Positions 3 through 40,706 of a stretch of DNA of 64,000 bases are shown here, piece after piece; positions within the stretch are counted from its first letter, which is position 1, and each line of letters starts with the position of its first letter. Position numbers and translations under genes: made by a program. Below the pieces are notes generated by a model. That model did not search any database, was not told the origin of the DNA, and worked only from the letters and a program-made list of their open reading frames with translations. This DNA is from Isoalcanivorax indicus (GTDB taxonomy: Bacteria; Pseudomonadota; Gammaproteobacteria; Pseudomonadales; Alcanivoracaceae), in contig NZ_QGMP01000001.1 in NCBI RefSeq assembly GCF_003259185.1, forward strand, positions 1,736,001 through 1,800,000. Reading direction: 5' to 3'.

Positions 3-3000
3 GACCTGGCCGAGTTCGACGGCAATAGCGTGATCTTCCGCGCGGGCACCGGCGCCTCGGGCTCCGAGGGCGGCGCCATGCCGGTGGGCGAAAGTGCCAG
101 CCTGCGTTTCCGGGTGCAGGTGGATAGCACGCCGGCCGTGGTCGGCGAGACCCTGTCCAGCGAAGTCTTTGTGACCTACAACTCCGCCACGCTGGGTACG
201 GAATACAATGCCTCCGGCAGCGTCACCCTCAACCTCAGCGTCGCCAGCGAAGCCGAGATCGAGGACGAACTCGAACTGACCCTGCTGGACATCACGGCCG
301 GCACGCCCACCAGCGTCACGGTCGGTGGTCAGCTGACCTACACCTTTACCGTCGCCAACAGCGGCAACCTGAGCCTCAGCAATCTGAGCCTGGATATCGA
401 CCTGCCGGTGACCGGTGTGAGCTGCACCAACGCCAGCCTGGCGCCCTCGGCGCAGACGACCTGCCAGGCCACCGTGACCCTGACCCAGGACATGCTGGAC
501 AACGAAGAAGTCAGCTTCAGCGCCAGCGCCACGGCCACCGGGCCACTCGGGACGTTCAGTTCGGTGTCGGTCAGCGAAACCACGCCGCTGGATCTGTTGC
601 CGGAACTGGTCAGCATCGCCCGCTTTGCGCCCATTGATGCGCTCACCAATGCCGACCCGGTCGGCTTCCTGGTGACCTTCAGCAAGGAGGTTACCAACGT
701 CGATGTTAGCGACTTCATGCCTGTCGGCGCCGCCGCAGGGACCGCGTCGATTCTGAGTGTCGCCACGCAAGGCGGCGCGCACAGTTATCTGGTCACCGTC
801 ACGGGCATCGCCGAAGCCAACGGCACACTGGGGCTGGCCCTGTCCCCGGCCAATGACATCGAGGACAACGCTGGCGCGGCGCTGGCAGACCTCGCGCCCA
901 CCGGCATCAACCAGACCTATACGCTGGACAACACGCCACCGCCAGTTCCTGTGGTGAGCGGCATCAGCGATGACACCGGCGTCAGCGACAGTGACGGCAT
1001 TACCCAGGACAACACCCTGCTGTTCCAGGGCACCGGTGAAGCAGGCAGCCTGATCACCGTCTACCTGGACGGCACACCGCTGGGCACCACCCTGGTCGAC
1101 GGCACTGGCGTCTGGACCTTCGACCACAGCGGCACCACGCTGCCCGACGGGACCTACGCCATCACGGCCACCGCCGAAGACAGCCTGGGCAATACCTCTG
1201 CACTGTCCGGCGCACTGACCGTAGTCATCGACACGCAAGCCCCTGTCCCGACACTGGATCAGGACGGCGCTCAACTGAACGACAGCACCCCGACCCTGAC
1301 CGGCACCACGGAACCGGGCGCCTCGGTGGTCGTGGTGGTGGACGGCGAGACCTACACCACCACCGCTGATGCCACCACCGGCCAGTGGAGTGTCACCGTC
1401 ACCGAGGAACTGGCGGACGGCCAGCACCCCGTCGAGATCACCATTACGGATCTCGCTGGCAACAGCGGCAACGACACCTTCAGCCTGGACATCGACGGCG
1501 AGCCGCCTGCGCTGGAAAGTATCCAACGCCACGCCCCCACCGAAGAGATCACCAACGCCAACATCGTGACCTTCCTGGTGAGCTTTGACGAAGCAGTGGT
1601 GAACCTGGACGTCACCGACTTTGTGCTGACCGGTGCTGCCGCAGGCGACGCCATGATCAGCAATCTGGTGCCGCAGCCGGGTGGCCTGCAATACCTGATC
1701 GAGGTCTCCGGCCTCGACACCGCCGACGGCCTGCTGGGCCTGGCGATTTCCGCCACGGCCGACATTCTCGACAGCCATGGCAATGCCCTGGTGCCCGCCG
1801 TGCCGCCGATCAACGAAGGCTATGTTCTCGATAACACAGCGCCAGTGCTGGACGGGGCCACTGTCGACGAGGACACCCTGACCCTGGGCTTCGACGAAAC
1901 ACTGGATGACGCCAGCGTGCCCGCACCCGGCGATTTCACGGTGGTGGTCGATGGCAACCCCGTCACAGTGACCGGCGTGAGCGTGGTCGGATCAGACGTG
2001 ATACTGACGCTGGAAAACAGCGTCTCCAGCACCGCCGACGTTACCGTCAGCCATACCCCCGGCACCAATCCGATTCAGGATCTCGCGGGTAACCCGGCGA
2101 CCGGCTTCAACGACGAATCTGTCGCCAACAACACCGCCGACAACGTGCCGCCGCAACTGGACAGCATCACCCGCCACGATCCGGCGGACGAACTGACCAA
2201 CGCCGACACGGTGATCTTCCAGGTGAGCTTTGACGAAGATGTCGTCAACGTGAGTGCCAGCGATTTCATCGCCACCGGCGCTGCGGCGCTGGATGCAGAA
2301 ATCACCACGGTGACCGGCAGCGGCAGCGTCTGGTTCGTCACGGTCAGCGGTATTGCTGAGGCCGACGGTGAACTGGGTCTGGCGCTGAGCCCGAGCCAGA
2401 ACATCGAAGATCTGGCGGGCAACGCCCTGGTCATGCTGACACCTGTGGGCAGCAACCAGACCTACACGCTGGACAACACGCCGCCCACCGTGCCGAGCAT
2501 CACCGGCATCAGCGAAGACACCGGCGTCAGCGACAGCGACGGCATTACCAGCGACAACACCCTGCTGTTCCAGGGCGAAGGCGAGCCGGGCAGCACCGTG
2601 ATCGTGCGCCTCAATGGCGATGTGATCGGCACCACCGTCGTGGCCGGCAACGGCACCTGGACCTTCGACCACAGCGGCACCCCGCTGGCGGATGGCAGCT
2701 ACACCGTGACCACCGTGGCCGAAGATGCGCTGGGCAACACCTCGGACGCCTCGGAGCCCTTTACTGTCGTGGTGGATACTGACACCGCTGACCCGACACT
2801 GAACCAGGACGGCGCCCTGCTCAACGACAGCACGCCAACCCTGACCGGCACCGCCGAGCCAGGCGCGACCGTGGTGGTTGAAGTGGATGGCCACAGCTAC
2901 ACCACCACCGCTGACGGCACGGGCCAGTGGACGCTGACCGTGACCGATGAACTGGCTGACGACGAGCACCCGGTGGTCGTTACCGTGACCGATGTGGCGG

Positions 3001-6000
3001 GCAACACGGCCACCGAGACCTTCACGATCAGCATCGATGGCGAGCCGCCCGCGCTGGAAAGCATCCAGCGGCATACACCCACGGATGCCATCACCAATGC
3101 GAACACCGTGACCTTCCTCGTGAGCTTCGACGAAGAAGTGGTGAACGTGGACGCTACCGACTTCGTCCTGACCGGCGCCGCCGCAGGTGATGCGATGATC
3201 AGCAACCTGGTGCCGCAAGCCGGTGGCCTGCAGTACCTGGTTGAAGTCTCCGGCATCGACAGCGCTGACGGTCTGCTGGGTCTCGCGATTTCCGCGACCG
3301 CTGACATTCTCGACAGCCACGGCAATGCACTGGTCCCCGCCGTGCCGCCGATCAATGAAGGCTACCTGCTGGACAACACGGCGCCCACGCTGGATAACGC
3401 CGTGATCAACGACGACACCCTGACGCTGCACTTCGATGAGGAACTGGATGGCGGCAACGTGCCCGCCCCGGCTGACTTCATCGTGCTGGTGGACGGCAAC
3501 CCGGCCACGGTGACAGGCGTCGCTATTGTCGACGAGACGGTGGTGCTGACCCTGGACGAAGGCATATCCAGCAACGCCACCGTGACCGTCAGCTACACGC
3601 AGGACGCCACGCCGCTGCGCGATCTGGCTGGCAACCCGGTGGACAGCTTCAGCGACGAACCGGTCGCCAACAACACGGACGACAATGTGCCGCCGCAGCT
3701 GGACAGCATCACCCGTCATGACCCGGCGGATGAACTGACCAACGCCGATACGCTGATCTTCCAGGTGACCTTTGACGAAGACGTTGCCAATGTGGACGCC
3801 GGTGATTTCATCGCTACCGGCGCTGCGGCAATTGATGCGCAAATCGCCACGGTGACCGGCAGCGGCAGCGTCTGGTTCGTCACGGTAAATGGTATTGCTG
3901 ATGCCGACGGTGAACTGGGCCTGGCGCTGAGCCCGAGCCAGAACATCGAAGATCTGGCAGGCAACGCGCTGGTTATGCTGACACCGATTGGCAGCAACCA
4001 GACCTACACGCTGGACAATACGCCACCCGCCGTGCCGAGCATCACCGGCATCAGCGAAGACACCGGCATCAGCGACAGCGATGGCATCACCAGCGACAAC
4101 ACCCTGCTGTTCCACGGCGAAGGCGAGCCGGGCAGCACCGTGATCGTGAGCCTGGATGGCGACGTGATCGGCACCACCGTCGTGGCCGGTGATGGCACCT
4201 GGACCTTCGACCACAGCGGCACTCCGCTCACGGATGGCGAATATATCGTGACCGCCGTGGCCGAAGATGCGCTGGGCAACACCTCCGATGCCGCCGAGTC
4301 CTTTACCGTCATCGTGGTCACGCAGATCGACCCGCCGACCCTGGACCAGGACGGCAGCACGCTGGATAGCGGCACCCTCACCGGCACCACCACCCCCGGC
4401 GCCAGTGTGGAGATCGAAATCGATGGCCATACCTGGACCGTCATCGCCGACGAAAACGGCGACTGGTCTGTGGATCTGGACGAGCTTGGCGAAGGCAGCC
4501 ATGACGTGGTCATTACCGTGACCGACGAGGCCGGCAACAGCGATACCCACACCGGCACCGTCACCGTGCAGGCACCGACGGTGCCCGTGATCAGCGGTAT
4601 CAGTGACGACACCGGCGTCAGCAACAGCGACGGCATCACCGCCGACAATACCCCGGCCATTCATGGCAGTGGTGCGCCGGGGCAGCTGATTGTGGTCTCC
4701 CGCGATGGTACTGAAATCGGCACGGCGCTGGTCGACATGGACGGTCTCTGGTCGCTGCCGCACAGCGGGCTCGCGCTGGGCGACGGCGCCTATGTCATCA
4801 CGGCGGTGGCCGAAGACACCCTGGGTAATACCTCGGCGATCTCGCAGCCCTTCGCGCTGGTCATCGATACGACCACGGCGATCCCGACGCTGGATCAGGA
4901 CGGCGAGACCCACGACGCCACCCCGACCCTGACCGGGGACGCGGAGCCGGGCGCCACCATCACCCTGACCGTGGGCGGTGACACCTGGACCACCACCGCT
5001 GACGCCAGCGGCCACTGGAGCGTGGAGATCGTGGACGGCCTGCCCAACGGCGATTACACCGTCACCGTGGAAGCCACCGACACGGCGGGCAACACCGCCT
5101 CGGGCGATTACACCTTGAGCATCGACATCGATCTGAGTGTGTTGCGCCGCATCGAACGCGATGACCCGCAGCAGCGTGAAACCAACGCGACCCAGGTGCA
5201 CTTCCTGCTCAGCTTCAGCACGCCGGTGGCTGGTGTCGACGCGACCGATCTGGCCCTGACCGGCCCGGTGGCGAGCGACGCCATGATCAGCCTGGTGACC
5301 CCGCTGGGTATGAACACGGACGGCGAGGACATCTACCGTGTCACCGTCATCGTGAGCAACGCACCCAACGGCCAACTGGGGCTGGCGCTGGACGGCGGTC
5401 AGACCATTGTGGACCAGTACGGCAACCCGCTGGGCACGACTACTCCTGGCCAGAACCAGAACTACCTGCTGGATAACCGCGCGCCAGAGCTGGCGGCAGA
5501 TAACGGCGCCACCGTGAACGGGCCGACCCTGCTGCTGGAGTATGACGAGCCGCTGGACGAAAGCGCCGTGCCCGACACGAGCGATTTCACCGTGATCGTG
5601 AACGGCACTCCGGTCGCCGTGACCGGCGTCAGCATCAATGGCCCGACCGTTGCGCTGACGCTGGAGACCCCGGTGTCTCCGGGTGCCCAGGTGTCGCTGA
5701 GCTACACCCCCGGGACCACGCCGCTCAGCGATCTGGCGGGCAACCATGCAGACGGCCTGACGGACCAGATTGTCAGCAACCGCACCCTGCGCGAGGTCGA
5801 AACCGGCCTGCGCGGTGTCGGCAACGGCGGCCTCGGTCTGCTGTTGCTGCTGGGCCTGGCGGCGGGACGGCGGCGCAAGGCCACCTGGCGCGCCGCCGTC
5901 GCCGGGCTGGGCCTGCTTGCCACCAGCCTGTTCTCAACCAGTGCACTGGCTGCCAATGATGCCGCGAACGGCCACTACCCTTATGTGGGCGGCGGTATCG

Positions 6001-7109
6001 GCCAGTCGCGCCTGGCGCCCGACACCCACAACACCGGCTACCGCGTCGATGACAAATACGACACCGCTTTTGACCTGTTCGTCGGCTACCAGTGGCACGC
6101 ACACTGGAGCGCCGAACTGTCCTGGCATGATCTGGGCGCCGCCGAACTGGCGCCCACCCTGCCGGGCCTGGACCCGCTGGATGTGGACTACCGCTTCCTC
6201 GGCCTGTCCGGTATCGGCTACCTGAACGGCTTCGACTGGGACGCTCGCGGCTGGGACCTGTTTGGTCGCCTCGGCGTGGGCACCCTGGATACCTCCGGCA
6301 ACGGCGGTGTCAGCGTGGATCAGGACAAGGACTGGCAGGTGTTCTTCGGCGCTGGCGTGGAATACCGCTTCGCCCGTGGCTGGGCCACGCGCCTGCAAGC
6401 CACGAGCTTTGACAAGGACGCGGCCGTGGTGACGCTGGACCTGCTCAAGCGCTTCGGGCGCCGACCGGCACCGCCCGCACCGCCGCAGGACAGTGATGGT
6501 GACGGTGTGATGGATGAGCTGGACCAGTGTCCGGATACCCCGGCGGGTGTCCAGGTGGATGAGGTGGGTTGCCCGATCGACAGCGACGGCGACGGCGTAC
6601 CGGATTACCTCGACCAGTGCCCGAACACGCCGCGTGGCGTCAAGGTGGACGACACTGGCTGCCCGCTGGACTCCGACGGTGACGGCGTACCGGATTACCG
6701 TGATGCCTGCCCCGGCACGCCGCCCGGCGCGGTCGTGGACGAACAGGGCTGTGAGGAAGCCTTTGCACTGGAAGTGCGCAATATCCTGTTCGCCACCAAC
6801 TCGGCCGCTCTGACGGAGCGCGGTCTTGCCGCCGTAGCACGGGTCGCGGAGTACCTCGGCCAGAGCGACACCCGCTTGCGGATTGTCGCGCACACCGACA
6901 GCCAGGGTGCTGCCGCGTACAACCAGCAGTTGTCTGAACGGCGTGCCGCGAGTGTCATGGAGGCCCTGATCGCCCAGGGTGTTGATCCGACCCGGCTTGA
7001 ATCACAGGGTCGTGGTGAAGAAGCGCCCATTGCCGACAACAGCACGGCCGAAGGCCGTCAGCAGAATCGTCGGGTGGAGTTCATTGTGATCGACGACGAC
7101 GGAGCATGA
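3..7109 (+). CDS. Giant Ig-like repeat surface protein fused to an OmpA-family outer-membrane protein (5' end outside window)
   Basis: The frame is open from the window edge, so the N-terminus lies upstream; numbering here counts from the GTG at 30. Residues ~70-195 form a DUF11-like repeat. Residues ~195-1915 are tandem bacterial Ig-like modules: Big_13-like units ending in VVxDT, units with an LDNTxP end, and SwmB-like units. At 1927-1951 comes a GlyGly-CTERM-like tail (GNGGLG, a Leu run, GRRRK), then a signal-peptide-like stretch ending ALA at 1974, an OmpA-type beta-barrel (~1975-2150), three thrombospondin type 3 calcium repeats (DSDGDGV..D..CP), and an OmpA C-terminal peptidoglycan-binding domain (~2250-2359; HTDSQG, LSERRA). 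It presumably sits in the outer membrane, anchors to peptidoglycan and displays an adhesin-like stalk. The domain joins are seen directly; the role is inferred. Confidence 0.85.
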   Translation, partial: DLAEFDGNSVIFRAGTGASGSEGGAMPVGESASLRFRVQVDSTPAVVGETLSSEVFVTYNSATLGTEYNASGSVTLNLSVASEAEIEDELELTLLDITAGTPTSVTVGGQLTYTFTVANSGNLSLSNLSLDIDLPVTGVSCTNASLAPSAQTTCQATVTLTQDMLDNEEVSFSASATATGPLGTFSSVSVSETTPLDLLPELVSIARFAPIDALTNADPVGFLVTFSKEVTNVDVSDFMPVGAAAGTASILSVATQGGAHSYLVTVTGIAEANGTLGLALSPANDIEDNAGAALADLAPTGINQTYTLDNTPPPVPVVSGISDDTGVSDSDGITQDNTLLFQGTGEAGSLITVYLDGTPLGTTLVDGTGVWTFDHSGTTLPDGTYAITATAEDSLGNTSALSGALTVVIDTQAPVPTLDQDGAQLNDSTPTLTGTTEPGASVVVVVDGETYTTTADATTGQWSVTVTEELADGQHPVEITITDLAGNSGNDTFSLDIDGEPPALESIQRHAPTEEITNANIVTFLVSFDEAVVNLDVTDFVLTGAAAGDAMISNLVPQPGGLQYLIEVSGLDTADGLLGLAISATADILDSHGNALVPAVPPINEGYVLDNTAPVLDGATVDEDTLTLGFDETLDDASVPAPGDFTVVVDGNPVTVTGVSVVGSDVILTLENSVSSTADVTVSHTPGTNPIQDLAGNPATGFNDESVANNTADNVPPQLDSITRHDPADELTNADTVIFQVSFDEDVVNVSASDFIATGAAALDAEITTVTGSGSVWFVTVSGIAEADGELGLALSPSQNIEDLAGNALVMLTPVGSNQTYTLDNTPPTVPSITGISEDTGVSDSDGITSDNTLLFQGEGEPGSTVIVRLNGDVIGTTVVAGNGTWTFDHSGTPLADGSYTVTTVAEDALGNTSDASEPFTVVVDTDTADPTLNQDGALLNDSTPTLTGTAEPGATVVVEVDGHSYTTTADGTGQWTLTVTDELADDEHPVVVTVTDVAGNTATETFTISIDGEPPALESIQRHTPTDAITNANTVTFLVSFDEEVVNVDATDFVLTGAAAGDAMISNLVPQAGGLQYLVEVSGIDSADGLLGLAISATADILDSHGNALVPAVPPINEGYLLDNTAPTLDNAVINDDTLTLHFDEELDGGNVPAPADFIVLVDGNPATVTGVAIVDETVVLTLDEGISSNATVTVSYTQDATPLRDLAGNPVDSFSDEPVANNTDDNVPPQLDSITRHDPADELTNADTLIFQVTFDEDVANVDAGDFIATGAAAIDAQIATVTGSGSVWFVTVNGIADADGELGLALSPSQNIEDLAGNALVMLTPIGSNQTYTLDNTPPAVPSITGISEDTGISDSDGITSDNTLLFHGEGEPGSTVIVSLDGDVIGTTVVAGDGTWTFDHSGTPLTDGEYIVTAVAEDALGNTSDAAESFTVIVVTQIDPPTLDQDGSTLDSGTLTGTTTPGASVEIEIDGHTWTVIADENGDWSVDLDELGEGSHDVVITVTDEAGNSDTHTGTVTVQAPTVPVISGISDDTGVSNSDGITADNTPAIHGSGAPGQLIVVSRDGTEIGTALVDMDGLWSLPHSGLALGDGAYVITAVAEDTLGNTSAISQPFALVIDTTTAIPTLDQDGETHDATPTLTGDAEPGATITLTVGGDTWTTTADASGHWSVEIVDGLPNGDYTVTVEATDTAGNTASGDYTLSIDIDLSVLRRIERDDPQQRETNATQVHFLLSFSTPVAGVDATDLALTGPVASDAMISLVTPLGMNTDGEDIYRVTVIVSNAPNGQLGLALDGGQTIVDQYGNPLGTTTPGQNQNYLLDNRAPELAADNGATVNGPTLLLEYDEPLDESAVPDTSDFTVIVNGTPVAVTGVSINGPTVALTLETPVSPGAQVSLSYTPGTTPLSDLAGNHADGLTDQIVSNRTLREVETGLRGVGNGGLGLLLLLGLAAGRRRKATWRAAVAGLGLLATSLFSTSALAANDAANGHYPYVGGGIGQSRLAPDTHNTGYRVDDKYDTAFDLFVGYQWHAHWSAELSWHDLGAAELAPTLPGLDPLDVDYRFLGLSGIGYLNGFDWDARGWDLFGRLGVGTLDTSGNGGVSVDQDKDWQVFFGAGVEYRFARGWATRLQATSFDKDAAVVTLDLLKRFGRRPAPPAPPQDSDGDGVMDELDQCPDTPAGVQVDEVGCPIDSDGDGVPDYLDQCPNTPRGVKVDDTGCPLDSDGDGVPDYRDACPGTPPGAVVDEQGCEEAFALEVRNILFATNSAALTERGLAAVARVAEYLGQSDTRLRIVAHTDSQGAAAYNQQLSERRAASVMEALIAQGVDPTRLESQGRGEEAPIADNSTAEGRQQNRRVEFIVIDDDGA
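2150..5120 (+). repeat. Long tandem super-repeat inside the Ig-like gene
   Basis: A block of about 514 codons recurs: the LDSITRHDPADELTNAD segment appears near 2156 and again near 3698, and the Big_13-like and SwmB-like modules between them recur in the same order with high nucleotide similarity. A diverged and shortened copy continues to about 5120. This is intragenic segmental duplication typical of RTX/Ig adhesins and a place where assemblies or lineages may differ in copy number. Confidence 0.75.
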
Positions 7110-29079: not shown

Positions 29080-29146
29080 AGCGTTATTGAAAAGCTAACC
29101 CTTTGAAGGAAAAGGGGTTTCCCGTGCGCCGCGAAAAGAGTGCCCG

Positions 29147-29152
29147 TATAAT
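29147..29152 (+). promoter_or_regulatory. Candidate -10 element upstream of maf
   Basis: A perfect TATAAT lies 46 bp before the maf ATG at 29199. No good -35 is seen at 16-18 bp, so the call is weak. Confidence 0.35.
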
Positions 29153-29198
29153 GGCCGCACAGAGCAGAAACCGACCCGAAAACCGCCCCGGAGACACC

Positions 29199-29807
29199 AT
29201 GTCCAGCGCCCCCGACCGCGAGCCCATGCCCCTCGTCCTGGCCTCCTCCTCCCCCTTCCGCCGCAGCCTGCTGGAGCGGCTCGGGCTGGCCTTCAGCTGT
29301 GACAGCCCGGACATCAACGAGCAGGCGCAGCCCGGCGAGACACCACAGCAGCTGGTGTTACGCCTGGCCCGGGAAAAGGCCCATGCGGTGGCAGCCCGCC
29401 ATCCCGACGCCCTGATCATCGGCTCGGACCAGGTTGCCGTCACGCCCGAGGGCCAGGTACTGGGCAAGCCTGGAGGCCGCGAGGCCGCCATCGAGCAGTT
29501 GCGCGCCAGCAGCGGTCGCAGCGTCACCTTTCTGACCGGCCTGTGCCTGCTGAACGCCGCCAGCGGTCGCCACCAGAGCGGCTGCGAACGCTTCCAGGTG
29601 CATTTTCGCACGCTGCGGGATGCAGTTATCGAGCGCTACGTGGATAGCGAGAAGCCCTTCAATTGTGCCGGGAGCTTCAAGTCGGAAGGCCTGGGGATCG
29701 TGCTGTTCAAGGCGCTGGAGGGGCGCGATCCCAACGCCCTGATCGGCCTGCCGCTGATCATGCTGACCGATTTTCTGGCGGCCGAAGGCGTTACCCTTCC
29801 CCTGTAA
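29199..29807 (+). CDS. maf: Maf-family nucleotide pyrophosphatase (YceF type)
   Basis: A 202-residue Maf protein with LASSSPFRRSLLERLGL at the N-terminus, LIIGSDQVA (catalytic Asp region), and FNCAGSFKSEGLG. Members next to yceD/rpmF are the YceF type, which hydrolyse m7GTP and related modified nucleotides and so act as house-cleaning enzymes. The ATG at 29199 has GGAG just upstream; an in-frame start at 29103 is possible but lacks a site. It is divergent from yceD. Its 3' end abuts the remains of the amidase 3' end and the 35-bp repeat. Confidence 0.9.
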   Translation: MSSAPDREPMPLVLASSSPFRRSLLERLGLAFSCDSPDINEQAQPGETPQQLVLRLAREKAHAVAARHPDALIIGSDQVAVTPEGQVLGKPGGREAAIEQLRASSGRSVTFLTGLCLLNAASGRHQSGCERFQVHFRTLRDAVIERYVDSEKPFNCAGSFKSEGLGIVLFKALEGRDPNALIGLPLIMLTDFLAAEGVTLPL

Positions 29808-30092
29808 GCGCTGCAGTGCCGGGCCGCGGCCACAGATCATCCCCGTCACACGGATCGGCCACCCGTACCGGACCTGCAACGAAGGCGGCTGCCTCGCCAG
29901 CGACACCGCATCCCGGCCAGCGCGGCCCAGTTAGGCTTGCCCAGACCGGGCAGAGTAGCAGGCCCACATGTCACCTGATATAAGAACGTCTATCCGATTC
30001 GGGAAGGGAGCGTTGCAGTTGCACGGAGAACCTCGCCATGCTTGCCGAGTGAGAGCAACGACACATAACAATACACTGAGCCTCTGAATCTC
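29808..30092 (+). other. Intergenic segment between maf and the island gene, with the left 35-bp repeat
   Basis: This segment carries the left repeat copy (29828-29862). Read on the minus strand in the amidase frame, it gives VADPCDGDDLWPRPGTAALTG and ends at a stop near 29792, i.e. what looks like the original C-terminus of the amidase found at 33.4-34.4 kb. From about 29935 the composition shifts to AT-rich. No convincing gene of its own was seen. Confidence 0.6.
29828..29862 (+). repeat. Left 35-bp direct repeat of the island
   Basis: Exact 35-bp copy beginning GGCCACAGATCATCCCCGTC, identical to 33436-33470 in the same orientation. The flanking bases differ between the copies. Confidence 0.92.
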
Positions 30093-33000
30093 ATGAATCC
30101 AGATTATCGTTTAGCGGGATGGATATCACTTCTGAGTGCAGCCTTGATCTTTCCCCAGCTCCTGCTAATCATCAGCGGAGCGCTGGCAGAGGTCTTTCTT
30201 GGCAACAATGCAATCACCAGACTGTCCCATGCTGTGGACTGCATACAGTTTGCCTTGAGCTATTACCTTTTGTGGTGCATCAAGCATTTTCTTGACGCAC
30301 CGAGGCTTGAGCGAACCATCAATGGCCTCATGATCCTGATGGTCGTCTATATTGGGATTTCCTTCCTTCAAATATTATATCTACAGCATGAACTTGTCAT
30401 AGCATCTATAGGGTTAATCCTGCTCATTCCATCTGGTTTTCTGTATATCTCTCTGGGGATAAAGCTTCGCAAACTGAATACACCAGCCGCCACCTCCTTG
30501 CATACTTATGCCGCACTTCTGGTTGCCAGTGGCGCCATGCTGATGACAATCATACTCGCAACCATCGCACTGCCATTATTGATTATCATGAATATAATAC
30601 TGGCAAAGGTATTTTTCCGCGCCGCCAAGCCCGGCCACGCACAATCCGGGACATCAAATCCGGAAAGCCAGAACAGCCCCGCGAATCACCCTGGAACAGA
30701 AATACATATCGCACCGATAATGGCAGCAGGAGCAGCAGTCCTGTTACTTTCTGCTCTTGGTTTGTACGGCTACCGGATACTCAATCTATACAATGTATTG
30801 CAGTTCAAAATTGTAATGCATGACACTGTGGTCAGATCCTTGACACATCTTGTGACCGCTGGTGTTGCAGGCATGCTTATCGCGACTGTTGGTTACAGAC
30901 AGCTATCAACCCAGATCACCTTCTGGCTTTTCGCACTGTTAGCTTTGTCCCTGGGGTTGTCCGGGCATGGCTTTTATCAGATCTATGGCGCGAGCGGCAA
31001 ACCAGATTTCCCAGAGTGGATCCTGGCCTTCATTCTTGGCGGCATATTCCAGTACCTGGCAACCTTGTCCCTGGCGTTCACTTATTTCATGCTGGGCAGC
31101 CACCTGGTCAGCCAACAGAGATCCTTATGGGGCTTCCAATGGCCACTGGCAGCAGGTTGCTTTACAACAGCCTTCTTTCTGGGGACCTATTTTTTCACCA
31201 CAGCGACCATGGCATCCCTCTGGTATCTGCATTTTGTCCTGCTATCCATGCTGGCCTTCGCCACACTGGGCTGGCCTGGGCTTTTGAAAAAATCAAAGCA
31301 AGGAAAAATGTACTACATAGGTGTATTCCTTTGCCTACCCTTGCTACTGATGTCTGCGCGCCCCCTTTACACCGCAAGCAAATTTTTATTTGACCATCAG
31401 GAATGGGTGACAGACACCTTCAGGCAACTGATCGACATGGAGTGGACCTCCATGGAAAGGGTCGATACGCTTCCCGAGAAAATCGGACACTACCACGCAG
31501 TCCACTTTCAACCACTTTTCATGGATATCTGGTTCAATTCTCGTGAGGAGCGACTGGCCTTCGATGGAACATACCTCTACCGCACCAGTGACGCCGGTCA
31601 ATCATGGGAGAAAGACCGCGCCCTGGGCTTTACTTGGCCGCGGAGGATGCAGTTCAGCGAGGATGGTCAACGTGGGTGGATCGATTACTCCTGGCAGGGG
31701 ATGGAAATTACGACAGATGGAGGAAAAACATGGACCGCTCTGACCGAAGAATCTATAAACGAGTCCATACCGGAAACCGACATAATATTTCTGGATGATA
31801 TCTTCAAAAGCTTATACCTTGACATCGAAACAGGTGCTGGATTTTTTATATACAGATGCCAGCAATTTGAAACCATGGATTTCGGTAAATCCTGGAACAT
31901 TTATGATTTCAAGGGTGAAAAAGGTGAAAACATATGCATTTACAGCTCTGCATTTTCAATAAACCTTGAAAAAACGCTCATGATCTCCAGGGAGAGTCCT
32001 TTCTCCAGGCATCTTTATCGCAGAGATCCGAGCAAAGAATTCTGGCATCCAGTCTGTGATATCGGATACCGATCCGGAAGGAACGAGTATTGCGAAGACC
32101 AGCCTCTGGCCGATCATGAAGAAGCTTTCCTGATGTCCCTCAGAGAAGGCGAGGAAGACCGCCACATTGAGTCCTTGCTGTATGATCCTGAAATCAGGAA
32201 AGCAATTATTGAGGACAAACATATCCCGATTTCCATGCTGCCAGAATCGCCACGGAGTACCAAAGGCATACACTGGATATCTGATGGCAAGACAATTGCC
32301 TATACCATTAATGAGGGAGAGAGCTGGATAGTTGAGCAAACCTACAAGGATTTTGATCATCTGGTTCCCATTGACGACAGCCGGGCATTTGCATGGGACG
32401 CCTATGGGGAATCGCTTGATTTCAGTAGTGACAGAGGAAAAACATGGTTACCTCTCCTGGATCTTGGCGAGCCTCCGCATCGCGGCTTGCAGAGTCATTA
32501 CTCAGATGAAAGGAAACTTATCTGGATACTTTCAAGTAAAGGATTGTTCATGATTGATATTCCTGGCGGCGAACATAAAAAAGTCATTAATACCGAGGAT
32601 GCCAGTTACGATTATTTGAGAGTATCCCCTGATGGCAGCTCACTATGGGTACTCAATGGAGATGATGGCACCGGAAAGGCAAGCTTCGATGCCGGCGCAA
32701 CCTGGAATGACTTCGATATTTCCAATCTCTCAGGCAATACAACCGACGACGAATATGAATATGATAATGAGTGGGTTTTCATACAAGCCATGGATTGTCT
32801 GACAGACTCAATGCGATGCTTCGTGCTGCTCAGCAATCGCCGTATCTATCAGTCAGACATCTTTGATGGCCATCTTCAGTTTGACGACAACTTCATTGCG
32901 CAAGTGCCAAAACCTCGCCAGAGCGAATATCACGACGAAATCAGGGGCGATCTGGTTGTAGACCAGGATGGAAAAAGGATGGTTTACGTGCCGGAAGAAT

Positions 33001-33410
33001 CGCTCTATTTCTATACATCCGGCAATGCAGGCAAGCGCTGGAGAAGGCAATCCATCAAAGTTCATGGCTATTGGATGCCGATGGAGAAAACCCTGGATGG
33101 TAAATTGCTGGCAAATGGCGAGAAGGCGCTGGCTATGTCTTCTGATTTTGGTGACACCTGGTCAACGATTCGCCCTTCGGGCTTGCGCGGCGGCACAGCC
33201 TATTGCCGTGATAAAGCCACGGAAACATTGCTACTGCTTACTGACTCTTCATCCGGCGGCTACCATGAAATCGCGTTCAGCGGCGATGGCGGCATGAATT
33301 GGGCACAAATGGACAACCAGGGAGCCACGCTCTCTCTTTGCGGCATGACCGAGGACTATCTATGGATAATTCGAGACGGCATGCATGTTTACCGTCGAGG
33401 TAATTTCTGA
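30093..33410 (+). CDS. Large membrane protein with C-terminal BNR/Asp-box (beta-propeller-like) repeats, unknown function
   Basis: A 1105-residue protein that I cannot assign to a family. Residues ~8-430 hold around eleven to twelve hydrophobic segments (for example IGLILLIPSGFLYISLG, LLIIMNIILAKVFF, MYYIGVFLCLPLLLM) with a polar linker near 200-220. Residues ~450-1105 are soluble and contain many Asp-box-like motifs (S/T-x-D-x-G-x-T/S-W): TSDAGQSW, TTDGGKTW, TMDFGKSW, SSDRGKTW, SFDAGATW, SSDFGDTW, SGDGGMNW. Such repeats mark sialidase/photosystem-assembly/Vps10-like propellers. The soluble part probably faces the periplasm. Codon use (ATA, AGA, AAA) is unlike the neighbours, supporting transfer. 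Confidence 0.8.
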   Translation: MNPDYRLAGWISLLSAALIFPQLLLIISGALAEVFLGNNAITRLSHAVDCIQFALSYYLLWCIKHFLDAPRLERTINGLMILMVVYIGISFLQILYLQHELVIASIGLILLIPSGFLYISLGIKLRKLNTPAATSLHTYAALLVASGAMLMTIILATIALPLLIIMNIILAKVFFRAAKPGHAQSGTSNPESQNSPANHPGTEIHIAPIMAAGAAVLLLSALGLYGYRILNLYNVLQFKIVMHDTVVRSLTHLVTAGVAGMLIATVGYRQLSTQITFWLFALLALSLGLSGHGFYQIYGASGKPDFPEWILAFILGGIFQYLATLSLAFTYFMLGSHLVSQQRSLWGFQWPLAAGCFTTAFFLGTYFFTTATMASLWYLHFVLLSMLAFATLGWPGLLKKSKQGKMYYIGVFLCLPLLLMSARPLYTASKFLFDHQEWVTDTFRQLIDMEWTSMERVDTLPEKIGHYHAVHFQPLFMDIWFNSREERLAFDGTYLYRTSDAGQSWEKDRALGFTWPRRMQFSEDGQRGWIDYSWQGMEITTDGGKTWTALTEESINESIPETDIIFLDDIFKSLYLDIETGAGFFIYRCQQFETMDFGKSWNIYDFKGEKGENICIYSSAFSINLEKTLMISRESPFSRHLYRRDPSKEFWHPVCDIGYRSGRNEYCEDQPLADHEEAFLMSLREGEEDRHIESLLYDPEIRKAIIEDKHIPISMLPESPRSTKGIHWISDGKTIAYTINEGESWIVEQTYKDFDHLVPIDDSRAFAWDAYGESLDFSSDRGKTWLPLLDLGEPPHRGLQSHYSDERKLIWILSSKGLFMIDIPGGEHKKVINTEDASYDYLRVSPDGSSLWVLNGDDGTGKASFDAGATWNDFDISNLSGNTTDDEYEYDNEWVFIQAMDCLTDSMRCFVLLSNRRIYQSDIFDGHLQFDDNFIAQVPKPRQSEYHDEIRGDLVVDQDGKRMVYVPEESLYFYTSGNAGKRWRRQSIKVHGYWMPMEKTLDGKLLANGEKALAMSSDFGDTWSTIRPSGLRGGTAYCRDKATETLLLLTDSSSGGYHEIAFSGDGGMNWAQMDNQGATLSLCGMTEDYLWIIRDGMHVYRRGNF

Positions 33411-34376
33411 TCCTTCTCCGGGCGCGATAGATACAGGCCACAGATCATCCCCGTCACACGGATCGGCCACGCCGCCCGGGGTCAGGGTCTCCAGCACCCG
33501 AGGGCGGTACTTCGCCAGCAGCGCCCAGAGCCGCGCCAGGGTTTCCGTGTCCAGCACACCATCATGGCGACGCTGGCGAAAATGCAGCTGGAAAGCCCGC
33601 ACCACATCCCGGGTGGCCGCATCCATCTGCCCACTGACCTCCAGCGGATAACCGTAACCGCGCAATGCCGCCTGCACATCCGGCAGGGATGGCGGTTGTG
33701 CTGCCAGCAACACCGTATAGCAGGCCACGGTTTCTTCATCCGGCCAGGCACCAATGCCAGCCTCGTAAAGCCGCTGCCACGGGAAGCGCGGCCCCGGATC
33801 CAGCTTGCGCGAGGGGGCAATATCCGAATGGGCTACTACATTGACCGGATCAATATCGTGCCGGGCCACGATATCCCGGGCCAGCGCGATGACCGCCTCG
33901 ATCTGATCGTCGGGATACGGCGCCCAGTAGAGGCCGAAGAGCGTGCCACGCGGGCCCGCGTTGATGATTTCGATACCGATGGAGGTATCGTTGATGTTGC
34001 TGCGCGGCCCCCACTCACTGACACCCGCATGCCAGGCGCGCCGGTGCTCTTCCACCAGTTGATAGACCAGCGGCTCACCGCGATGAAAACGTGCCGGCAG
34101 GGGCATCACGTAATGGGCGCTGACATGCGGCCCGGTCAGGGTGCGCAGGGCGCGGGCTTCATGATGTCCGGTGTAATGAATGACGAGATGGTAGATGCGG
34201 CTACTGTGACCCGGCGCCACGTGGCTGTGGTCCACCCGGTAGCCTTCGCGCCGTTCGGGCATGGCACAGGCCGCCAGCAACAGCGACCATACCAGAAGCG
34301 CCAGGCCGCTCAGCAGCCTGGCGTGGCGCGCGCCCGCAAGCCCGCTTCTGTCAGCGCAGACTCCAGCTATCAACAC
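33360..34376 (-). CDS. Lipoprotein N-acetylmuramoyl-L-alanine amidase (AmiD-like) with altered C-terminus
   Basis: A 338-residue protein with a lipoprotein signal (LLLAACAMP; Cys37). The Amidase_2 domain (~60-215) has zinc ligands in HLVIHYTG and VVAHSDIAPSRKLDPG and the Glu-containing region SIGIEIINAG. A peptidoglycan-binding domain follows (~240-295). It would trim peptidoglycan or anhydro-muropeptides at the outer membrane. The start is a GTG overlapping sppA by 26 bp. The last ~25 residues (VSIAPGEGSEITSTVN...) are encoded by island sequence beyond the 35-bp repeat and overlap the 3' end of the island gene on the other strand, so the native tail has been replaced. Confidence 0.88.
   Translation of the reverse strand: MLIAGVCADRSGLAGARHARLLSGLALLVWSLLLAACAMPERREGYRVDHSHVAPGHSSRIYHLVIHYTGHHEARALRTLTGPHVSAHYVMPLPARFHRGEPLVYQLVEEHRRAWHAGVSEWGPRSNINDTSIGIEIINAGPRGTLFGLYWAPYPDDQIEAVIALARDIVARHDIDPVNVVAHSDIAPSRKLDPGPRFPWQRLYEAGIGAWPDEETVACYTVLLAAQPPSLPDVQAALRGYGYPLEVSGQMDAATRDVVRAFQLHFRQRRHDGVLDTETLARLWALLAKYRPRVLETLTPGGVADPCDGDDLWPVSIAPGEGSEITSTVNMHAVSNYP
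33436..33470 (+). repeat. Right 35-bp direct repeat of the island
   Basis: Exact copy of 29828-29862. It lies within the amidase gene and encodes VADPCDGDDLW on the minus strand. Confidence 0.92.
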
Positions 34377-37631: not shown

Positions 37632-40600
37632 ATGAAACGTATGCTGATCAACGCGACCCACCCCGAAGAGGTGCGTGTCGCCCTGGTAGACGGCCAGAAG
37701 CTTTACGATCTGGATATCGAACACCGGACCCGCGAACAGAAGAAAGCCAACATCTATAAAGGCAAGATCACCCGCGTCGAACCCTCCCTGGAGGCCGCCT
37801 TCGTGGACTTCGGCGCCGAGCGCCACGGCTTTCTCCCGCTGAAGGAAATCTCACGCCAGTATTTCAGCAAGGACCCCAAGGACATCCAGGGCCGCATCAA
37901 CATCAAGGACGTCATCCGCGAAGGCCAGGAAGTCATCATCCAGGTCGACAAGGAAGAGCGTGGCAACAAGGGCGCCGCCCTGTCGACCTTCATCAGCCTG
38001 GCGGGCCGCTATCTGGTCCTGATGCCGAACAACCCCCGTGCCGGCGGCATCTCCCGCCGCATCGAGGGTGACGAGCGCCAGGAACTGAAAGAGGCCATGA
38101 GCGCCCTGAAGATCCCCGCCGACATGGGCGTGATCGTGCGCACCGCCGGCCTCGGCCGCACCCCGGAAGAGCTGCAATGGGATCTGGACTACCTGCTGAA
38201 GCTGTGGGACAGCATCGAAACGGCCTCCAAGGACCGTCCTGCCCCGTTCCTGGTGTACCAGGAGTCGAATGTCATCATCCGCGCCATCCGTGACTACCTG
38301 CGCAAGGATATCGGCGAAGTCCTGATCGACTCCGACGAGACCTTTGCCGAAGCCAACGGCTTTGTCGCTCAGGTGATGAACGACTTCGCCCACAAGATCA
38401 AGCTGTACAAGGACGAGACCCCGCTGTTCTCGCGCTATCAGATCGAATCCCAGATCGAGACCGCATTCCAGCGCGAAGTGAAGCTGCCCTCGGGCGGCTC
38501 CATCGTCATCGACCCCACCGAAGCCCTGGTGTCCATCGACATCAACTCCTCGCGCGCCACCAAAGGCGCTGACATCGAGGAAACGGCGCTGCAGACCAAC
38601 CTGGAAGCCGCCGACGAAATCGCCCGCCAGCTGCGCCTGCGCGACATCGGTGGCCTGATCGTGGTCGACTTCATCGACATGGGCCCGGCGCGCAACCAGC
38701 GCGAAGTGGAAAACCGCATGCGCGAAGCACTGGAAGCGGATCGCGCCCGCGTCCAGGTCGGCCGCATTTCCCGCTTCGGCCTGATGGAGCTGTCGCGTCA
38801 GCGCCTGCGTCCGTCGCTGGGCGAAACCTCCAGCATCGTCTGCCCGCGCTGTAACGGCCAGGGCCATATTCGCGATGTGAAATCCCTGGCGCTGTCCATC
38901 CTGCGTCTGGTGGAAGAAGAAGTCATGAAGGAGCGCACCGGCGAGATCCAGGCCCAGGTGCCGGTGCCGGTCGCGACCTACCTGCTGAACGAAAAACGCC
39001 AGGCGCTGCGAGACATCGAAGCGCGCTACAAGGTGCGCGTGCTGGTGATTCCGAACCAGAATCTGGAAACCCCGCATTTCGAAGTGCAGCGCATACGCGA
39101 CGATCAGGTGCAACAGAACGTCACCAGCCATGAAATCGGCCTGCTGGAAGGCGAAGAAGATCCGAGCCTCGTGTCCGCCCAGGACACCGAGATCAAACGC
39201 CAGGAGGCGGCGGTAAAACTGGTGGCACCGGATACCGCACCACCGCCGCCGAAACCGGCCCCCGAACCCGTTGCCGCGCCCGTTACCCCGGGCCTGCTGG
39301 CGCAGTTCTTTGCTTTCATCGTGCGTATTTTCAAGGGCGATGGCGAAGCGAGACCGAAAAAGTCCGTTGCCAAACAACCGGCACGTAACAACCAGCGCAA
39401 CCCGAATGCACGCCGTGGCCAGGACAGTAACCGTGGCGGCCAGCAGACCCGCAATCGCCGTGGCGACAACCGCCAGAACGAGAACCGGGGTCGTCGTGGC
39501 GGCGAAAACCGCCAGGAGCGCGACGGTCGTCAGGACTCCCGTGGAGATAACCGCAAGGATGCCCGCCAGGAAAAACCTGACAACCGCGGCAACCGGGGTG
39601 GCCAGAATCGTCCCGAGCAGCAACGCCCGGAACAGCCACGCCAGGAGCAGCCCACCAAGGCCCGCGACGAAGGTCGTCAGGACAAGCCCCAGGCAGACCC
39701 ACGCCCTGCCGACCAGGACGGCGGCCAGCAGGAAGCCTCCCCGCCGCGTCGTCGCCGTCGGCGCAACCGCGGCGGTGGCGGTGGTGGCAACGCCCAGAAC
39801 CCCCAGAACGCCCAGCAGCAGGACGGCCGTCAGCGCCCGCCGCGCGACAGCGATGACGACGAGATCAGCGACAACAACGATATCCGCAGCCAGGACAACG
39901 CCGAGCGCCGCACCCAGGCCAAGGATGACCGCCCGCTGCGCCAGCGTCAGCGTCCACAGCGCAAGCAGGACGATGTTGTCGTAGCGTCGGCTGCCACAGC
40001 AACGGCTGCCGCAGCAACGGCTGCCGCAGCAACGGCTGCCGCCAGTGATACTGCTGGCGATCACACCAGTGACAAACCCGCGGCCCGTGCGGAAGAAAAA
40101 CCGCAGCAGGCCAGCAAGGCGCCAGAGCAGACCGCAAGCCCGAACACCGAGCTGAAGAACGCCGAGCCAGCCCCCCAGGCCGAGGCGCCGACGGCCCGGC
40201 AAGCGCCGCAGGAAAAACCCGCCGCCAGCGAGGCCCCGAAGGCGGAAGCCGCACCAGAGCAGACCGCGCAGGCACCTCGTGCAGCGGCACCGGCTGCGGA
40301 TATGGCCACGCCAGCGCCGAGCGACAAGGCGCCGACTGACGCCACCGCATCCGCACCAGCATCACAGGCGGACAAGGCTGCCAACCCCGCCGTCGAAACC
40401 GCCGCCGGGCAAAAGCCAGCCCGTACCGCCGTGAGCGAAGCGGCTGCTGAACCGGCCGCAGCACCGAAGGCGCCCCCCGCAGAGCCTGCGGCGGCAGCTG
40501 AAAAAGCCAGCAACGCTGAAGTAGCCGAGCCGTCTGAGAACGTCGAGAACGTGGAAAAAGCAGACAGAGCGGACACCGAAGCACCTGCCGAAAAACCGGC

Positions 40601-40706
40601 AGAGTCAGCCCCGGCCAAGCCCGTACCGGCTACCGAGGAAGCGCCAGCACGCGCCTCCAACGATCCGCGTGTGCTGCGTCGCCAGCAGCAACAGGAAGGC
40701 AAATGA
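37632..40706 (+). CDS. rne: Ribonuclease E
   Basis: A 1024-residue endoribonuclease, the scaffold of the RNA degradosome. [30 protein letters not shown] is followed by an S1 domain (~35-120), 5' sensor and DNase I-like catalytic part with Asp in [11 protein letters not shown] (~303) and VVDFIDMG (~346), and the zinc-link CPRC (~404). Residues beyond ~530 are disordered: an amphipathic segment ([15 protein letters not shown], ~555-570) likely binds the membrane, then Arg/Asn/Gln-rich RNA-binding stretches, then an Ala/Pro/Glu-rich tail. The tail contains a 15-bp DNA repeat. A strong terminator follows. Confidence 0.96.
39990..40043 (+). repeat. 15-bp tandem repeat in the rne C-terminal tail
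   Basis: Units GCTGCCRCAGCAACG at 39990, 40005 and 40020, plus a partial unit, encode an AAAT-type alanine stretch. In-frame units allow length variation. Confidence 0.85.

Follow-up and report, generated by a model that had tools for sequence, protein, structure and literature searches.

A foreign one-gene segment between exact 35-bp direct repeats at the 3' end of an amidase gene in Isoalcanivorax indicus

Results

The locus described here belongs to the maf-sppA region of the I. indicus chromosome (genome, 3.44 Mb; contig, 2.6 Mb), within a 64-kb stretch of DNA that was analysed as a whole and is referred to as the window. We observed an exact 35-bp direct repeat, GGCCACAGATCATCCCCGTCACACGGATCGGCCAC, whose two identical copies a preliminary description of this DNA had placed correctly (Table 1). 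The segment between the copies measures 3,573 bp and has about 49% G+C, versus 63% for the surrounding chromosome. It had been described as about 3.6 kb of AT-richer DNA, which holds for all but its first 78 bp; these are GC-rich, and the AT-rich part begins near position 29941. The 78 bp are followed by a short leader, by the only gene of the insert, which has 1,105 codons, and by 25 bp that adjoin the right copy of the repeat. This gene has 48.2% G+C and a GC3 of 0.53, and maf, the amidase gene, sppA and plsX have GC3 values of 0.71-0.82. As had been noted, the insert lacks an integrase; its single gene is accompanied by neither a transposase nor a replication gene.

Table 1. Features of the insert and its neighbours, in positions of the window.
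Feature	Position	Strand	Remarks
maf, the undisrupted gene on the left (nucleotide pyrophosphatase, Maf family)	29103..29807	+	
Direct repeat (35 bp), left copy	29828..29862		Begins and ends with GGCCAC; follows maf
Left-end 78 bp of the insert, 72% G+C, seemingly without coding sequence	29863..29940		Related sequence not found
Leader 5' of the insert gene, 54% G+C	29941..30092	+	No Rfam family, no clear promoter
Insert gene, 1105 aa	30093..33410	+	Predicted TM segments, nine Asp-box (BNR) motifs, Sortilin-Vps10 Pfam match
Direct repeat (35 bp), right copy	33436..33470		Within the 3' coding end of the amidase gene
N-acetylmuramoyl-L-alanine amidase (Amidase_2 + PG_binding_1)	33360..34376	-	Last 24 residues from insert DNA

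In order-4 Markov simulations of the window (20 trials), the longest exact repeat arising by chance was 16-21 bp, so the 35-bp repeat is not a chance occurrence. The repeated unit consists of GGCCAC, 23 bp and again GGCCAC, with the same six bases at both limits. When 464 kb of the chromosome, sampled in stretches around the window, were scanned, only 0.036% of 35-bp stretches had identical 6-mers at their two limits, which corresponds to a post hoc P of ~4e-4.

Exact direct repeats of at least 26 bp with copies 0.3-30 kb apart occur in only three other cases in these 464 kb: adhesin-like repeats spaced by ~1,542 bp, a tandem gene duplication spaced by 1,634 bp, and one 26-bp pair whose copies lie 1,068 bp apart. 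A second similarly bounded island was not found in the 464 kb, where two other AT-rich islands also lack the repeat-bounded structure of the present insert. An AT-rich island of 3.75 kb (chromosome positions 1924751-1928501, 47% G+C) carries a 796-aa ORF resembling a helicase/nuclease-type protein; it apparently adjoins a tRNA gene and has no long bracketing direct repeat. In an AT-richer block at 1647251-1651251, a 768-aa ORF is followed downstream by three paralogous ORFs in tandem, each of ~330-410 aa; the exact repeats of the block, of up to 38 bp and 1,634-bp spacing, derive from the duplication. Within the window, positions 702-5291 contain long coding repeats with a spacing of ~1,542-1,545 nt that resemble a large repeat-containing surface adhesin, followed at 6489-6668 by a 90-nt tandem repeat in which Asp/Gly codons abound; an RNase E-like gene (37632-40706) has a long C-terminal part that is rich in Ala/Pro/Glu and shows a strong strand skew (AT skew at most 0.62).

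The order plsX, yceD, maf, amidase, sppA, HAD phosphatase, rluC, rne is common to all six congeners, and alignment of the maf-sppA region, as the preliminary description had proposed, revealed an empty site in each of them: the matched ends of maf and the amidase gene lie 17-109 bp apart, with no second 35-bp copy and no 1,105-codon gene. The gene was likewise not found in 45 other genomes of the family. Thus, neither of the two observations that had been named as speaking against an insertion, a duplicated 35-bp block in relatives without the island and presence of the gene throughout the clade with ancestral composition, was made. When the flanks are joined at one copy of the repeat, the window aligns to its closest relative across the junction, save for ~27 bp present in the window's lineage only. 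On the amidase side of the 35-bp unit, 14 bp (CACGGATCGGCCAC) align to the closest relative and are therefore host sequence, and the remaining 21 bp have no clear counterpart there. The empty sites in the six congeners indicate that the segment was inserted in the window's lineage and is not ancestral. Judged from these alignments, in which one genome stands for the species, foreign DNA entered the 3' end of the amidase gene after the species split from its nearest sequenced relative. The possibility that the maf-amidase site is an insertion hotspot was discarded, as the gap is short in all congeners.

With the flanks joined, the amidase frame ends in DPCDGDDLWPRPGTAALTGEG; with the insert, it ends in DPCDGDDLWPVSIAPGEGSEITSTVNMHAVSNYP. 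A tail reading DLWP-RPGTAALTGEG has given way to one reading DLWP-VSIAPGEGSEITSTVNMHAVSNYP; both are C-terminal to the peptidoglycan-binding domain, since PG_binding_1 ends at residue 283 of 338. The amidase tails all differ among the congeners, and none of them conserves the joined-flank tail. Because only a non-conserved tail was exchanged, the amidase probably keeps its function. The left copy had been read as continuing into the original amidase tail; an open frame is indeed present, but that tail is conserved in no congener. The related proposal of an integration that recreates its target stands as to an insertion at the amidase 3' end in one lineage with a 35-bp duplication, but the tail was not recreated; judging from the reading frames, the target is restored no further than 35 bp.

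The amidase gene lies between sppA and maf in all seven genomes of the genus. Its best relatives outside the genus, in Halomonas, Chromohalobacter and Salinicola, are placed in other neighbourhoods and so cannot serve to test the site, and the other genera of the family yielded only weak, AmpD-like matches. From this distribution, the amidase gene itself may be an older acquisition.

In the protein encoded by the insert, eight hydrophobic segments are predicted among residues 1-400; a part of ~640 aa follows, in which nine Asp-box (BNR) motifs occur (approximately residues 498-1070). A match to Sortilin-Vps10 (PF15902) scored 36.6 bits, against the Pfam gathering cut-off of 33. The product is thus predicted to be a membrane-anchored BNR beta-propeller protein. 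A single-sequence AlphaFold2 model of the propeller part had a mean pLDDT of 34 and was unusable. Residues 5-190 gave weak matches to small stand-alone membrane proteins, and the idea that two TM regions represent an internal duplication received no support. Close homologues were found neither by a pattern search of bacterial and viral contigs nor by tblastn against plasmids and phages. The order and phylum samples gave distant, partial matches only. The class sample, however, contained one distant, near full-length homologue (residues 5-887, 26% identity, E 7.5e-66; 27% identity to the propeller part). Its G+C equals that of its own contig, and its neighbours, read from their translations, are carbonic anhydrase-like and RNA-cyclase-like genes. 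This ordinary chromosomal setting of a near full-length homologue indicates that the insert gene is a real gene of a rare family, and homology and composition together lead us to regard it as horizontally acquired.

We also searched for signs of a mobile element. The only tyrosine recombinases in the genome are XerC and XerD (named from their sequences and neighbours), and no serine recombinase was detected. Ku was not found in the genome either, and Ku-dependent end joining is therefore unlikely. The insert has no terminal inverted repeats (the best score was matched by 94% of shuffles) and no transposase gene, that is, neither mark of a DDE transposon or insertion sequence. Its DNA was not found in plasmids or phages, and it contains no convincing defence or phage families. 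At the left end, no folded DNA structure was detected (z 0.39). The 78 bp were compared with the amidase gene as a possible diverged copy, but the scores fell within those of shuffles, bar one isolated comparison among many; matches in other genomes were short, GC-rich and weak and look like chance.

Discussion

To account for an insertion of foreign composition with an exact repeat at its limits and empty sites in the relatives, we favour, with a probability of about 0.5, an event that would have proceeded through microhomology rather than an integrase, either by template switching or by slippage and insertion. The donor would have been AT-richer foreign DNA of 3.57 kb with one gene, and the host site would have held the GGCCAC-23 bp-GGCCAC unit. 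In the first route, a replication fork would switch at the second GGCCAC to the foreign DNA and return at the first, so that 35 bp would be copied twice. In the second, a tandem duplication of 29 bp would arise first, by slippage, and its middle GGCCAC would then serve as the point at which the foreign DNA was joined. Either route would lead to exactly the observed product. For this to work, the foreign DNA would have had to carry GGCCAC at each of its ends. A unit bounded by GGCCAC fits microhomology better than the action of a recombinase, and the 'different recombination' that the preliminary description had offered as an alternative suits the locus better than its integrase-type reading. 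Against microhomology, the coincidence is a single six-base match, noticed post hoc at one locus, and a recombinase could have been lost since or could belong to a family other than the tyrosine and serine ones.

The integrase-type footprint that had been proposed for this locus corresponds to site-specific integration, in which a small non-autonomous element would be bounded by the 35-bp copies as attL and attR, attB would be the amidase 3' end, and the enzyme a tyrosine recombinase acting in trans or lost. A direct repeat at a gene 3' end flanking foreign DNA is the textbook footprint of integrase islands, and 35 bp is a usual size for att cores; the locus shares with such islands the direct repeats around a foreign segment and the empty sites in six congeners. 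However, no tyrosine or serine integrase was found in the insert, nor in the genome beyond XerC and XerD, the gene end is not restored, and the arms are not convincingly inverted (6% of shuffles are equal). The reuse expected of an att site was not seen, as the 35-mer is absent from the rest of the genome and neither it nor its 23-bp core occurs in the viral contigs; no similar island accompanies it in the 464 kb. An att site is further disfavoured because the donor would need an exact match to a species-variable amidase tail, which AT-rich DNA would hardly carry. On balance, we consider site-specific integration rather unlikely.

A single crossover of the Campbell type, in which a circular DNA already carrying at least 35 bp of the amidase tail entered by homologous recombination, would give a product of identical appearance, and 35 bp just exceeds the ~30 bp that PMC2884548 cites as the threshold for RecA-dependent recombination in E. 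coli. It would nevertheless demand an exact copy of the tail in AT-rich foreign DNA when even the closest relative does not share that tail, and the insert has neither a replication gene nor a plasmid relative; we therefore regard it as improbable. A reading of the insert as a mobile element reduced to one gene, without a recombinase of its own, is very doubtful; a host or unrecognised activity would then have moved it with unusually long target duplications of ~35 bp, and other gene ends in unsampled strains would carry copies. An assembly artefact is a still fainter prospect: if k were below 35, a de Bruijn graph would presumably yield exactly such a structure by threading into the chromosome a separate small circle that shares the 35-mer, but the circle would have to be independent and yet already share a unique 35-mer, replication genes are lacking in the insert, and the contig extends over 2.6 Mb. 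Least credible of all is an ancestral segment deleted between the repeats in the relatives. Bacteria and archaea commonly lose DNA between short direct repeats (PMC2884548, PMC3119063), but here each of the six congeners, and the family beyond them, would have had to lose the segment independently, and the composition is foreign.

Among known systems, small strain-specific segments bounded by direct repeats and devoid of mobile genes have been reported in several species, with illegitimate recombination given as the main cause (PMC2884548, Genome Biol. 2010). The present insert resembles them in being restricted to one lineage, in its direct-repeat flanks and in that a mobile element is not the explanation; it differs in that those segments are mostly 20-500 bp with repeats mostly below 30 bp, whereas here 3.6 kb and 35 bp are involved and the event is clearly an insertion. 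Repeat-bounded indels are also frequent in Haloquadratum walsbyi (PMC3119063), where sequence likewise lies between two repeats in one genome, with a single copy at the empty site, and where some indels, as here, alter only a few C-terminal residues. Those indels have 4-20 bp repeats and are mainly read as deletions, whereas here the phylogeny points to insertion. We conclude that the present case belongs with the known repeat-bounded variable segments, among which it is notable for its long duplication and clean empty sites.

Integrase/att genomic islands share with this insert the direct repeat, the position at a gene 3' end and the foreign composition, but the insert differs from them in its lack of a recombinase, its unrestored gene end, its single gene and its unconserved target. 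Homology-facilitated illegitimate recombination usually deletes host DNA, whereas here 35 bp were duplicated. The likeness to that process lies in the capture of foreign DNA by short identities at the junction, which has been described for transformation in Acinetobacter, Pseudomonas stutzeri and pneumococcus, according to studies cited in PMC2884548 and PMC3784515. As for the cargo, its product resembles BNR/Vps10/Ycf48-like beta-propeller proteins in the Asp-box repeats and in a Sortilin-Vps10 match above the gathering score, but differs from them in the predicted N-terminal TM segments fused to the propeller part and in that a close relative was not found.

Taken as a whole, this is a recent, clean and fairly ordinary horizontal transfer of one gene into a marine bacterium, resolved to the base and with a clean empty site, and unusual mainly in the absence from the genome of a tyrosine or serine enzyme that could have moved it. 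It illustrates that a direct repeat, even an exact one at a gene's 3' end, does not in itself count as evidence of an integrase. If more strains show a duplication bounded by GGCCAC, the recombinase-free capture of single genes would become directly open to study.
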